Below the pieces are notes generated by a model. The model worked only from the letters and a program-made list of their open reading frames with translations, was not told the DNA's origin and searched no databases. This document shows, one piece after another, positions 3,966 through 8,176 of a stretch of 40,857 bases of DNA (position 1 is the first letter of the stretch; the number at the start of each line of letters is the position of its first letter). Made by a program: the position numbers and the translations under genes. Source of the DNA: Pseudomonadota bacterium (GTDB taxonomy: Bacteria > Pseudomonadota > Gammaproteobacteria > Burkholderiales > Burkholderiaceae_C); NCBI GenBank assembly GCA_021818065.1, contig JAKAFC010000003.1, positions 1-40,857 on the forward strand. The letters are read 5' to 3'.

Positions 3966-4127
3966 GGTGGGCGTTGGAAAGGTCGAATGGTCGAAGGCGT
4001 GTGGACGTCGTTGTGTGGACACGGCCTTGTCGATATGTCAGCAGGATACCAGCGCCCTTTGACCCAGCGCATGCAGCCTCGCCGGATGGTGGATTGCGTT
4101 CTGACAAAGTTGGTGCATCTATGATGT

Positions 4128-4142
4128 GTGAGAATTTCCCAC
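4128..4142. promoter_or_regulatory. Related palindrome upstream of the beta-barrel gene
   Basis: GTGAGAATTTCCCAC, immediately 3' of TATGAT (4120-4125); half-site GTGGGAA shared with 7375-7391 and 7414-7430 but 2 bp shorter overall. Confidence 0.45.
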
Positions 4143-4249
4143 GTTTTGTTGCTGGGTTGCTGACATGACCGTCGTGACGCCATTTGAACCGTCATGCGTA
4201 TCCCACCCAGCGCACTTCCGGCCCACCCTTTCTCCGACCCGAGACCATC

Positions 4250-5035
4250 ATGTCCCATCGTCCCACCCTTCTTGCCCTCCTTCTCGCCGCTGGCGGTCTC
4301 GGCACCGCACAGGCCGAGCCGGCGCTGACCGTCGGCAACACCCTGTCGTTCTTCCAAGGCACGTTCGGTACGAGCAACACCATCAACATCCGCTATGACG
4401 CCACCGACATTCAGTACGGCGACAACAACACTTGGCGCGTCAAGCTGACGGTGCCGTATGTCTCCGAATCGGGTCTGCCCGCCAATGCCACCATCTCTGG
4501 CGGCACAGTGGTGGGCGGCGGTGCTGGCTCGACCCAGACGCGTTCGGCCAGTGGACTGGGCGATATCTGGCTGGCTGGCCACTCCAAGGTCTTCCAGGGC
4601 AGCGGTCTCACGCCCTCGGTTACGCCCTACGTCAAGGTCAAGTTCGCCACGGCCTCGGCCGCGAGTGGCCTGGGCACGGGCAAAAACGACTATGAGGTCG
4701 GGGTCGGGTTGCAGCAGGTTGTGGGGAGCAACTGGTTCCCGTTCGCCAACCTGGGCTATCGCGTCGTCGGCAATCCAGCGGGCTACGCCTTGCGCAATAT
4801 CGGCATCTACCAGGTCGGCGCCAGCTACGCACCGAGCCAGCAGAACGTGGTCACGCTGATGTATGCCGGCTCGCAAGCCATGGTGGCGGGTGGTTCAGCA
4901 CCGTCGGATGTGATTCTGGCGTGGAATTACAACCTCACGCCCAAGGGCAGCGGCTTTCAGGTCTACCTGGACAAGGGCCTGAGCCACGGCAGCGCCAACT
5001 TCGGGGTCGGCATCGGCGGGCAGATCGTATTCTGA
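4250..5035 (+). CDS. Exported beta-barrel-like outer membrane protein (transporter/porin-like)
   Basis: Signal peptide (MSHRPTLLALLLAAGGLGTAQA), alternating beta-strand pattern, Gly/aromatic-rich, C-terminal ...GIGGQIVF ending in Phe. Confidence 0.72.
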   Translation: MSHRPTLLALLLAAGGLGTAQAEPALTVGNTLSFFQGTFGTSNTINIRYDATDIQYGDNNTWRVKLTVPYVSESGLPANATISGGTVVGGGAGSTQTRSASGLGDIWLAGHSKVFQGSGLTPSVTPYVKVKFATASAASGLGTGKNDYEVGVGLQQVVGSNWFPFANLGYRVVGNPAGYALRNIGIYQVGASYAPSQQNVVTLMYAGSQAMVAGGSAPSDVILAWNYNLTPKGSGFQVYLDKGLSHGSANFGVGIGGQIVF

Positions 5036-5053
5036 GCCGACTCAAGATCAGTC

Positions 5054-5079
5054 AAGGCCAGCCTATGCTGGCCTTTTTT
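5054..5079. terminator. Intrinsic terminator shared by convergent genes
   Basis: Perfect 9-bp stem AAGGCCAGC-CTAT-GCTGGCCTT followed by TTTT; the minus-strand stop codon (5078-5080) lies at the end of the T tract. Confidence 0.85.
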
Positions 5080-6475
5080 ACGGCCTCGGCACGCTCGGCA
5101 GTTGTGGGCTCGCTGGGATGTTGGGCAAGCTGACACTGGGCGGCGTGACGACCGCAGGCGCAACGCTGGGCACCTGCGGCGGTGTCATTGCAGGTGGGGG
5201 TAGCGGCGTGCTGATGCTGGGCATCTGCGGAGTCGGCGGCACCTGAGGGATAGCGGGGAGTACCGAGGATGGGACACCGGGCAGCGACACCATCGGCGGC
5301 ACCGGCGTAACGATGGAGGGCATCTGCACCGCAGGTCCTGTCAGAACGGCACCTGCCGCGTTCGCCGCAGCCTGACTGCGATCGGACGACATGGACGGTG
5401 CATGGCTTGGCTGCGTGGCTGCAAGCGGCGGCAGGGCGTACTGCATGGCGTCGATCTGCGGAATCACCCGTTGCACGGCGACCGTCGTCGCACTGCGCAG
5501 AACGCCATCGATCAAGGTCGGGGCGGCCTGCAGTGCTGCGGCTCGCAACTGCGCATCCAGCAAGGGCGTGGCGCCCAGCACGTGCAAACCATGCGCCTCC
5601 AGCCCCTGCGGACCGGATTGCAGATAGCCAGCCATGATCACCCGCGTGCCCACGGGTGCCTTAACCGCTGGCGCCGTCATGATCGCCGTGATGACATCGC
5701 CGCTGCGGCCCTGCACACCGCGCAGGACCACATCACCGCCCGGCGCGGGCCAGACTGGCACAGCGCCTGGCGCCACGCCGAACCACTTGCCGTGGACACG
5801 TACCTGATGCGCGGCGACATTCACCGCGTCGACCCGGCCTCGCAGCAGCAAAGGCGTCTGCGCGTTCGCCATGTGTGCAGTGGTGAGACGCACCACACGC
5901 AAAGCTTGCCAACGCCCATCACCCTGGTCGAGCGCGCTGACGCGCACCACGTCGCCGACCGCCAAAGCCTCCCGCGGCAGGGCTTGGTCTTCCGCATTAC
6001 GCACCTGGGTGTCGGGCGACAGCACCACCGTCTGCCCCAGCACCCGCACCTGACCATTGGCGCGATCGATCTGCGTCAGCCGTCCAATCAGGGCGTGGTC
6101 GATGCTCACGTCGACTGCCTCCAACCGCCCGCCGTGCTCGACGGCCTGCACGCGGACCATGTCGCCCAGGTGCAGGCTGCGCTCGGTGCCCGGCTGGCCG
6201 TCCACGCTGTAGCGCACCCCATGCGGCAACTCGTACTCTCCGCCGTTGACAAAAATACTGCCAAAACGCTGCACCGGACCGATTGCAAGAATGCCCGTGC
6301 CACCAATGCCCCCGGGGTGGATGCCCGTACCCCCGATGCCGCCCGGCTCGATACCGGTGCCTCCCATGCCTCCGGGGGTCGCTGCCAGAGACCCAGCAAG
6401 GCTCAAAAGCATGGCAATGCACAGCAACCCCAAGCCGTGCAGCGCCTGCAAACCATAGCGTTGCAGCCGCCTCAT
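5078..6475 (-). CDS. DUF5666-type exported protein with GGIGGTGI.P repeats and Pro-rich tail
   Basis: Signal peptide, 3x GG(M/I)GGTGI(E/H)P, then FGSIFVNGGEYE and repeated 'IDRANGQVRVLG...VGDVVRVSA' OB-like units; C-terminal P/V/S-rich tail. Confidence 0.75.
   Translation of the reverse strand: MRRLQRYGLQALHGLGLLCIAMLLSLAGSLAATPGGMGGTGIEPGGIGGTGIHPGGIGGTGILAIGPVQRFGSIFVNGGEYELPHGVRYSVDGQPGTERSLHLGDMVRVQAVEHGGRLEAVDVSIDHALIGRLTQIDRANGQVRVLGQTVVLSPDTQVRNAEDQALPREALAVGDVVRVSALDQGDGRWQALRVVRLTTAHMANAQTPLLLRGRVDAVNVAAHQVRVHGKWFGVAPGAVPVWPAPGGDVVLRGVQGRSGDVITAIMTAPAVKAPVGTRVIMAGYLQSGPQGLEAHGLHVLGATPLLDAQLRAAALQAAPTLIDGVLRSATTVAVQRVIPQIDAMQYALPPLAATQPSHAPSMSSDRSQAAANAAGAVLTGPAVQMPSIVTPVPPMVSLPGVPSSVLPAIPQVPPTPQMPSISTPLPPPAMTPPQVPSVAPAVVTPPSVSLPNIPASPQLPSVPRP
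6284..6373 (-). repeat. 30-nt coding tandem repeat encoding GGxGGTGIxP x3
   Basis: GGMGGTGIEP GGIGGTGIHP GGIGGTGILA. Confidence 0.9.
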
Positions 6476-7326
6476 GTCGATTCTCCGGTTGCGCCATCGG
6501 ACAGCGTATGCGGCGGCATGTCCTCCTCGTAGTAATACACGCCCAGGCGCAGACGCTTTGAGGGCTCTGCGTCAGCCGCGCCGGTCGCAGCGGCTTGCGC
6601 CCGCTCGGCGCGCGAGACCTGCTGGTACGCCTGCTGCAGCAGGCGTTCGCCGAGCCGCCGCAGATCGTCGCGCACAGCCTCGGCCACTTGCGGCGGCAAG
6701 GCGTCGAAATACACCGACTGTTCGAGGTAAGGCGTCTGCCCCTCTAAGTTATGCACTGCCGCGCGCAGGTGATCGCCGATGTGCGCGCCCATGAAACCCA
6801 ACCGGTCTTGCGGCAGATCCGACACATAACCACGGCGCGCCAGCGCCACAGTGTCTCCCTGCAACTCAACCACACCGGCACGCAGCAACTCGTCGAGCAC
6901 GGTACGTGGACGCATGTCGGCCTTCACCAGCCGCACCAGACTCTCGAAACTGGGCAGCGGCTCCTGCGCCCGCTGCGGCAGCGCACGCGGCTCGCCTGCG
7001 GCGTCGTGGTAGGCCTCGCAGGCCACCCAGGCGGCCACCACCTGCGCCGAGATATTGGCGCCATGCCGCAGCGCGATCTCGCCGGAACCGTCCTGCAATT
7101 CTTCGCGCAGCCGCCGCACCTCTTTGCGATGGATGCCACTGAGCAGGCTCACCCGGCTATCGGTGGGCACCGGCTTGCCACTGCGCGCGTCGAGAGCGAT
7201 GACTTCGCCCACATAGACGAACTTGAGCAACTCAGCCAGCGCCCCATACGTCCAGCCTTGAGTGATCAGGTAGCGGACGAAGGGACGCAGGATGGACAGT
7301 GCCGCCGACTTCAGAGCATCAGACAT
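6472..7326 (-). CDS. DUF6502-type protein, putative DNA-binding regulator
   Basis: RPFVRYLITQGWTYGALAELLKFVYVGEV ... PTDSRVSLLSGIHRKEVRRLREEL resembles the DUF6502 N-terminal HTH-like region; ATGA overlap with the DUF5666 gene. Confidence 0.72.
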   Translation of the reverse strand: MSDALKSAALSILRPFVRYLITQGWTYGALAELLKFVYVGEVIALDARSGKPVPTDSRVSLLSGIHRKEVRRLREELQDGSGEIALRHGANISAQVVAAWVACEAYHDAAGEPRALPQRAQEPLPSFESLVRLVKADMRPRTVLDELLRAGVVELQGDTVALARRGYVSDLPQDRLGFMGAHIGDHLRAAVHNLEGQTPYLEQSVYFDALPPQVAEAVRDDLRRLGERLLQQAYQQVSRAERAQAAATGAADAEPSKRLRLGVYYYEEDMPPHTLSDGATGEST

Positions 7327-7369
7327 AGCCGAAGGATAAGAGAGAGCTCAACCGAGAGAGTCCCATTGC

Positions 7370-7397
7370 TTGACGTGGGAAAGTTTTCCACTATGAT
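7370..7397 (+). promoter_or_regulatory. Sigma70-like promoter of the repeat-protein gene
   Basis: TTGACG (7370-7375), 16-bp spacer, TATGAT (7392-7397). Confidence 0.65.
7375..7391. promoter_or_regulatory. Palindromic putative operator 1
   Basis: GTGGGAAAGTTTTCCAC, near-perfect inverted repeat filling the promoter spacer. Confidence 0.6.
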
Positions 7398-7413
7398 AAC
7401 CCCAAGCGTGTCT

Positions 7414-7430
7414 GTGGGAAATTTTTCCAC
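7414..7430. promoter_or_regulatory. Palindromic putative operator 2
   Basis: GTGGGAAATTTTTCCAC, 39 bp downstream of operator 1, same half-sites. Confidence 0.6.
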
Positions 7431-7476
7431 TCGCTTGATGGCTTTACTTCCTTAACGTTGTTTCAGGAGAAATCGC

Positions 7477-8121
7477 ATGTCCAAGACCCGTACCCTCACC
7501 GTTGTGTCCGCCGCGATCGCCGCCGCGTCGCTGTCGTTCGGCATTGCCAGCGCACAGACGGCCATCCGCACGGTGCAGACCTCGCAAACGTCTGCCGCCG
7601 CGAGCAGCGACGCGGCTGATGGCCAAACCAAGGCGACGGTACAGACCCGCCAGTCCACCGCCGCGACCCAGAGCGTGACGACACGCGATGCCAACAGTGC
7701 CGCCGCGACCGGCACTCCTACGCAAACCCGCGCGCAAGTGCAGACGCGCGAAACCGCGCAAACCCGAACCACGGCACAAAGCCAGCAAGGTGCGCCTGCC
7801 GCCACCGCGCAGGGCCAGCACGGCCAGGGGCTTGGTTTGCAAACCGCCACACTGGCGGGGGCCGCCGCGCAAACGCCAAGCCTTCCAGCGCTCGCTGCGC
7901 CAGCAATTGCCGTACCGGTGGTAAATACGCCTGCGGTGCAGGTGCCTGCGGTCAACACACCCGCGGTAACCGTGCCTTCGGTGACCACGCCCGTCATCAC
8001 CGTGCCGGTGGTGAACACCCCTGCCGTCAATGTGCCAAGCGTGGCAACCCCTGCTGTGACCATGCCGGTGGTGAATGCGCCCTCCATCCAACTGCCGAAT
8101 GTGATGCGGCCGCAGATGTGA
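7477..8121 (+). CDS. Exported low-complexity protein with C-terminal pentapeptide (xPxVx) repeats
   Basis: RBS AGGAGA at 7465-7470; signal peptide ...SLSFGIASAQT; Q/T/R-rich middle; repeats VPVVNTPAVQ VPAVNTPAVT VPSVTTPVIT .... Confidence 0.8.
   Translation: MSKTRTLTVVSAAIAAASLSFGIASAQTAIRTVQTSQTSAAASSDAADGQTKATVQTRQSTAATQSVTTRDANSAAATGTPTQTRAQVQTRETAQTRTTAQSQQGAPAATAQGQHGQGLGLQTATLAGAAAQTPSLPALAAPAIAVPVVNTPAVQVPAVNTPAVTVPSVTTPVITVPVVNTPAVNVPSVATPAVTMPVVNAPSIQLPNVMRPQM
7912..8118 (+). repeat. 30-nt coding tandem repeat (decapeptide = 2 pentads), about 7 units
   Basis: In-frame VPVVNTPAVQ/VPAVNTPAVT/VPSVTTPVIT/VPVVNTPAVN/VPSVATPAVT/MPVVNAPSIQ/LPNVMRPQM. Confidence 0.9.
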
Positions 8122-8148
8122 GCGCGCAACGCGCCGTCTGTTGAAACC

Positions 8149-8176
8149 AGGCGCTGCGGCGGCTACCGCAGCGCCT
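8149..8176. terminator. Hairpin between convergent genes (likely shared terminator)
   Basis: AGGCGCTGCGG-cggcta-CCGCAGCGCCT, 11-bp perfect stem; no strong U tract. Confidence 0.55.

Follow-up and report, generated by a model that had tools for sequence, protein, structure and literature searches.

DUF6502 as a probable autoregulating DNA-binding repressor of neighboring exported-protein genes

The window analyzed here, a stretch of 40,857 nucleotides from a Thiomonas genome (assembly GCA_021818065.1, contig JAKAFC010000003.1, positions 1 to 40,857 of the forward strand), contains a block of four genes that encode a DUF6502 protein, an exported DUF5666 protein, an exported repeat protein, and a barrel-like exported protein. 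Our results make it probable that DUF6502 is a dedicated, autoregulating DNA-binding repressor of its own gene and of the neighboring genes for exported proteins. We consider DUF6502 a very likely DNA-binding switch because candidate operators lie on all three promoters of the block, occur nowhere else in the genome, and occupy the equivalent place in many other Proteobacteria. An initial annotation of this DNA had proposed a compact cell-envelope block under the control of DUF6502. This core claim was largely supported in terms of the co-localization with DUF5666 and the operators on three promoters, whereas the barrel-like gene proved to be only an optional member. Control by DUF6502 is the likely arrangement as far as sequence can tell.

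The palindromes noted earlier upstream of the outward-facing genes were confirmed and exceed chance by far. All three are copies of one 17-bp motif, GTGGGAAAnTTTyCCAC, with three sites (six strand matches) in the window compared with 0.02 expected in window shuffles. Two sites are located in the gap that separates the DUF6502 operon from the divergent gene for the exported repeat protein, and the third precedes the barrel-like gene (Table 1). When the 2.68-Mb genome (assembly 88% complete) was searched with the pattern, only these three sites were found at up to two mismatches. Together they would account for all three transcription units of the block, and no other unit was found that they could serve. 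The -10 element of the DUF6502-DUF5666 operon is TATAAT in most relatives. The gene for DUF6502 carries a conserved candidate operator over its own promoter, as expected of a transcriptional repressor.

In the mechanism that we propose, an N-terminal helix-turn-helix (HTH)-like region of DUF6502 (HRKEVRRL) would recognize the 17-bp sequence GTGGGA-N5-TCCCAC. The two sites between the divergent genes would cover both of their promoters and the third would adjoin the -10 element of the barrel gene, with bound DUF6502 blocking RNA polymerase at all three promoters. The levels of the regulator and of the exported proteins would then change in step, and an inducing signal would act on the DUF6502 repressor. 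The same plan recurs across Proteobacteria: DUF6502 overlaps the next gene by 4 nucleotides, the product of that gene is exported or is a lipoprotein and begins with CGGG...GGTG, and the operator differs from clade to clade. Direct binding by DUF6502, and repression rather than activation, are what we infer from these data, and steric repression is the simplest reading.

Table 1. Positions in the window of the candidate regulatory sites, genes, and hairpins of the DUF6502 block
Feature	Position	Strand	Remarks
Candidate operator 1, GTGGGAAAGTTTTCCAC	7375..7391	+	Fills the -35/-10 spacer of the repeat-gene promoter
Candidate operator 2, GTGGGAAATTTTTCCAC	7414..7430	+	39 bp from operator 1
Candidate operator 3, GTGTGAGAATTTCCCAC	4126..4142	+	Precedes the barrel-like gene; immediately follows TATGAT (4120-4125), a possible -10
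Promoter-like site of the repeat gene	7370..7397	+	TTGACG - 16 bp - TATGAT; conserved in 9 aligned regions
Promoter-like site of the DUF6502-DUF5666 operon	7393..7420	-	TTCCCA - 16 bp - TATCAT; -35 inside operator 2
Barrel-like exported protein	4250..5035	+	Open reading frame opens at 4184, probable ATG at 4250; optional block member
Exported DUF5666 protein	5078..6475	-	Pfam match; translationally coupled to DUF6502
DUF6502 protein, proposed operator-binding autoregulator	6472..7326	-	Pfam match and HTH-like segment
Exported Pro/Val-rich decad/pentad repeat protein	7477..8121	+	Open reading frame and repeat analysis; C-terminal PNVMRPQM
Hairpin with T-run, terminator-like for the barrel gene	5054..5079	+	Edge holds the DUF5666 stop codon
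Strong hairpin	8149..8176	.	From folding; T-run on neither strand

DUF6502 was found in 60 of 151 genomes of the same, Burkholderiaceae-type family (approximately 40%) and in 21 of 399 genomes of the phylum. Across the family, 82 DUF6502 loci were retrieved, with mechanical gene calls, and the 300 bp upstream of each DUF6502 gene were searched for perfect palindromes. A generic palindrome score did not separate operators from GC-rich palindromes and was abandoned; the template TGxGy-N5/6-y'Cx'CA did separate them. A perfect palindrome of this kind is present upstream of 41 of the 82 genes, with approximately 1.4 expected, and is found downstream of none of the 82. The spacer is 5 bp at 33 loci (0.65 in resampled and 2 in reversed controls) and 6 bp at 8 loci (0.75 and 2, respectively). 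An independent phylum-wide draw outside the family gave a perfect site at 12 of 17 loci. If DUF5666 is the upstream gene of the pair, the operator often lies at the start of the operon. The GTGGGA palindrome itself recurs at four alphaproteobacterial plasmid loci, those of Pseudoroseomonas, Azospirillum, Methylocystis, and Microvirga (L229, L230, L231, and L234), the first three of which have DUF6502 followed by an annotated DUF5666 with a 4-nucleotide overlap. One alternative is that the genes are neighbors by chance, with palindromes that are nothing more than incidental repeats or RNA hairpins and have no link to regulation. The DUF6502-DUF5666 pair does occur without the barrel or repeat gene, as this would allow, but the abundance of sites far above shuffles, the fixed spacers of 5 or 6, the conserved footprints, and the lack of matches downstream make this explanation highly improbable.

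The type of operator tracks the DUF6502 clade. Variants include GTGGGATAATATCCCAC, TTTGGGA-N6-TCCCAAA at a near-fixed position, TTTGCGA-N5-TCGCAAA, AAATGTGA-N5-TCACATTT, and AAATGTGCA-N3-TGCACATTT. Two types were traced through whole genomes. With one mismatch allowed, GTGGGAWAATWTYCCAC occurs in 11 of 14 genomes with DUF6502, at 1 to 3 places in each, compared with 0 in a reversed control, and in none of 25 genomes without a DUF6502 match (22 family genomes and 3 Thiomonas genomes). AATGTGCN5GCACATT occurs in 13 of 16 genomes of its own clade, and 22 genomes without DUF6502 gave no exact match and three matches with one mismatch. Across whole genomes, both types are scarce, and genomes without DUF6502 contain none or almost none. 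This bears on the possibility that the palindromes belong to a different regulator encoded elsewhere and that DUF6502 is merely one of its targets. Structure prediction and PDB searches were uninformative on a DNA-binding domain of DUF6502, which would leave room for such a regulator. On the other hand, the palindromes accompany DUF6502 across Proteobacteria and vary with its clade, so that a separate regulator would have to follow DUF6502 exactly, and we regard this explanation as quite unlikely.

The proposal that DUF6502 itself binds these sites has to be weighed against several observations. An HTH-like segment, which had been noted before, is present by eye at around residues 55 to 77 (TDSRVSLLSGIHRKEVRRLREEL). 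Profile searches of the PDB with 8 and with 65 sequences revealed no solved structure that resembles DUF6502, and an AlphaFold2 (AF2) model built with 8 close sequences has a predicted local distance difference test score (pLDDT) of 51, with residues 1 to 93 at about 40 or lower, which is too poor for a fold search; the HTH is therefore only putative. Shared ancestry confounds the apparent match of operator bases to helix residues, in which residue 71 ranks only fifth for base x, and Lys71 occurs together with TGCGA, TGGGA, and TGTGC. A coupled pair in Rhizobium has no recognizable operator, and two DUF6502 loci of the phylum-wide draw (L244 and L248) have no clear one. We had considered a one-residue code in which Arg71 accompanies base G (18 of 18 cases at spacer 5), and dropped it, as phylogeny confounds the association and Lys71 spans operator types. 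On the Rhizobium plasmids, DUF6502 (L232 and L233) adjoins flagellar and chemotaxis genes and has no TGGGA palindrome; in L232, DUF5666 is annotated beside it.

The possibility that DUF6502 binds the sites as an activator, for example by reshaping a promoter spacer in the manner of MerR, was also considered. Operator 1 lies between the -35 and -10 elements, as at MerR-type promoters. MerR promoters have a spacer of 19 to 20 bp, whereas that of the repeat gene is 16 bp and thus not of the long type. In addition, the operator elsewhere covers the -10 element or the spacer, and the third site in the window lies downstream of a possible -10. We consider an activator unlikely, and favor repression by DUF6502. 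In the window, as in the TGTGC clade, the operator covers the promoter spacer, and in the TTTGGGA clade it covers the -10 itself. At all 16 loci with a promoter scoring at least 9 of 12, the promoter overlaps the operator, a count that carries little weight because the promoter search window was centered on the operator. At six loci of the TTTGGGA-N6-TCCCAAA clade (L073 to L077 and L080), the likely -10 falls inside the operator and the ATG is only a few bases further on, which hints at leaderless transcripts.

Comparison within Thiomonas, in which the locus is carried by T. bhubaneswarensis, T. intermedia, and others, shows conservation as well as loss. DUF6502 of the window type is present in 9 of 13 genomes of the genus, and the block sits between rluC-gph and, where the contig reaches, sppA. 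The two-site arrangement is kept in 8 other loci (L202 to L208 and L213), usually with 39 bp between the sites (37 in L202) and with a weaker second divergent site in L205. The footprint CTTGACGTGGG...CCACTATnAT is nearly invariant, and TTGACGTGGG, TTTnCCACTATnAT, and the second site stand out as conserved islands in the alignment. The operator of the barrel gene is kept wherever that gene exists (four Thiomonas relatives). In L209, L211, and L212, gph adjoins sppA and the palindrome is gone. A relic remains in L210 (L210:7700-8514, G158), where DUF6502, DUF5666, and the barrel gene are gone and one palindrome is left along with the sequence for the C terminus of the repeat protein (...PNVMRPQM). 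One genome also encodes a second DUF6502 that is 41% identical (L227:6202-7008; G000:C75:27201-28007); it is accompanied by a diverged site of its own, TGGGAAAAATTCACA, and by a divergent gene for a glycine-rich lipoprotein.

The four-gene block was confirmed by analysis of open reading frames on both strands, as were the 4-nucleotide ATGA overlap of the DUF6502 and DUF5666 genes and the 10-residue repeats in two of the proteins (30-nucleotide tandem arrays at 6291-6386 and 7942-8025). PF20112 (DUF6502) is matched over residues 4 to 271 (E value 1.7e-23, 83.3 bits against a gathering threshold of 27), and PF18914 (DUF5666) is matched in two stretches (E value 1.8e-13, 51 bits against 27); both families are annotated as being of unknown function. 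No relevant Pfam family was matched by the barrel-like and repeat proteins. The three exported proteins have, by sequence reading, signal-peptide-like starts (MSHRPTLLALLLAAGGLGTAQA from 4250, MRRLQRYGLQALHGLGLLCIAMLLSLAGSLAA, and MSKTRTLTVVSAAIAAASLSFGIASA). They look exported, and the location implied by the earlier label "surface" is putative. In the DUF5666 protein, three GGxGGTGIxP decads follow the signal peptide and precede a Pro/Val-rich tail. The array of the repeat protein consists of Pro/Val-rich VxxPx pentads and VNTPAVQVPA decads. Repeats of PF00805 have the form A(D/N)LXX, and no match to this family was found at E values up to 10; the name "pentapeptide-repeat protein" given previously is wrong.

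The description of the fourth protein as a beta-barrel could not be confirmed, as there is no Pfam match and the AF2 model, built from four sequences, is unusable (pLDDT of 29) and too poor for a fold search. The label rests on a signal peptide, on a beta-rich sequence ending in Phe, and on a weak homolog (L071) whose porin and outer membrane protein matches are below the cutoff; a PDB profile search with four sequences gave nothing significant. Relatives occur in just 2 of 150 other family genomes. The barrel gene is an optional local member of the block: in two loci (L217 and L218), DUF6502, DUF5666, and the repeat gene are together with the barrel absent. Both hairpins of the block do fold, but they are not two shared terminators, as had been supposed: only that at 5054-5079 has a T-run, on the + strand and hence on the barrel side, and neither was listed by a consensus scan. 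Elsewhere in the window, positions 1431-2382 contain two adjoining YeeE/YedE-type half genes for sulfur transport (Sulf_transp and DUF6691), which fit a sulfur-oxidizing host.

The coupling of DUF6502 to exported proteins extends beyond the window. Both DUF6502 and DUF5666 are present in 48 of the 151 family genomes and one family alone in 12 and 11 (odds ratio 29, Fisher P = 1e-17), which bears out the co-occurrence proposed earlier. At 44 of the 82 DUF6502 loci, the next reading frame starts at exactly -4. The product of the gene after DUF6502 is in most cases an exported protein (in many, a lipoprotein) whose N terminus has the form CGGG...GGTG: among 48 coupled proteins (from L073 to L151 and the window), a lipobox is present in 36 and a GG[TS]G motif close to the N terminus in 37, compared with 58 and 9 of 451 other neighbors. 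The common start is notable because the partners come from families unrelated to one another (DUF5666, DUF4382-like by sequence reading, and unnamed). Other neighbors of DUF6502 include secreted proteins of the beta-propeller and SpaA/DUF11 kinds and a PAP2-type acid phosphatase, and a DUF5666 gene in L167 is a distant operator target. DUF6502 was not named in the literature searched, an absence that is no proof of an unstudied family; the operator, the autoregulation, and the coupling suggested here would be new. For a family known only by number, this would provide a testable function, the DNA sequence that it targets, and the genes under its control; unrelated exported families of unknown function (DUF5666 and DUF4382-like) would be tied together by a shared regulator and a shared N-terminal motif; and the clade-specific operators would offer a natural system in which to follow the co-change of regulator and site.

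In comparison with known systems, the window proteins belong, above curated cutoffs, to the PF20112 and PF18914 families, whose coupled pair is widespread in Burkholderiaceae and present in Alphaproteobacteria. Regulators of the TetR/LacI type act locally as autorepressors, through palindromic operators that cover divergent promoters. The DUF6502 block resembles this plan in its divergent genes, its operators on both promoters, and the presence of the DUF6502 gene among the apparent targets. It differs in that DUF6502 (approximately 280 amino acids) forms a separate family, for which sequence searches showed no relation to regulators of solved structure, and its partner is an exported protein or lipoprotein rather than an enzyme or pump. 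Surface lipoproteins of Neisseria have a glycine-rich stretch after the lipobox Cys. Proteins coupled to DUF6502 similarly have a CGGG...G stretch right after the lipidated Cys; in contrast to the neisserial proteins, a GGTG element follows and the genes are coupled to DUF6502, the window DUF5666 protein is without the lipobox Cys, and surface export here is only putative.

A further parallel concerns the MrtJ/JDVT-CTERM sorting pairs (NF033192 and NF033191; PMC11980579). DUF6502-type palindromes lie directly before genes for the intramembrane protease MrtJ in L172 (G075:C17) and L174 (G104:C8), and in L228 (G065:C12) DUF6502, MrtJ, and a JDVT-CTERM cytochrome occur together, with a palindrome between the latter two. 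We rejected the idea that MrtJ belongs to the window block, as there was no match in 13 Thiomonas genomes, including that of the window; MrtJ is therefore a likely target in other genera. This suggests that DUF6502-type operators control a surface-sorting pair there. It raises the tentative and rather doubtful possibility that DUF6502 represents a new regulator-lipoprotein system, in which a cytoplasmic repressor would be paired with a CGGG...GGTG-marked exported protein across unrelated folds, with feedback on the repressor from the marked protein or from its export, and a regulon that in some genera would reach MrtJ/JDVT-CTERM sorting.

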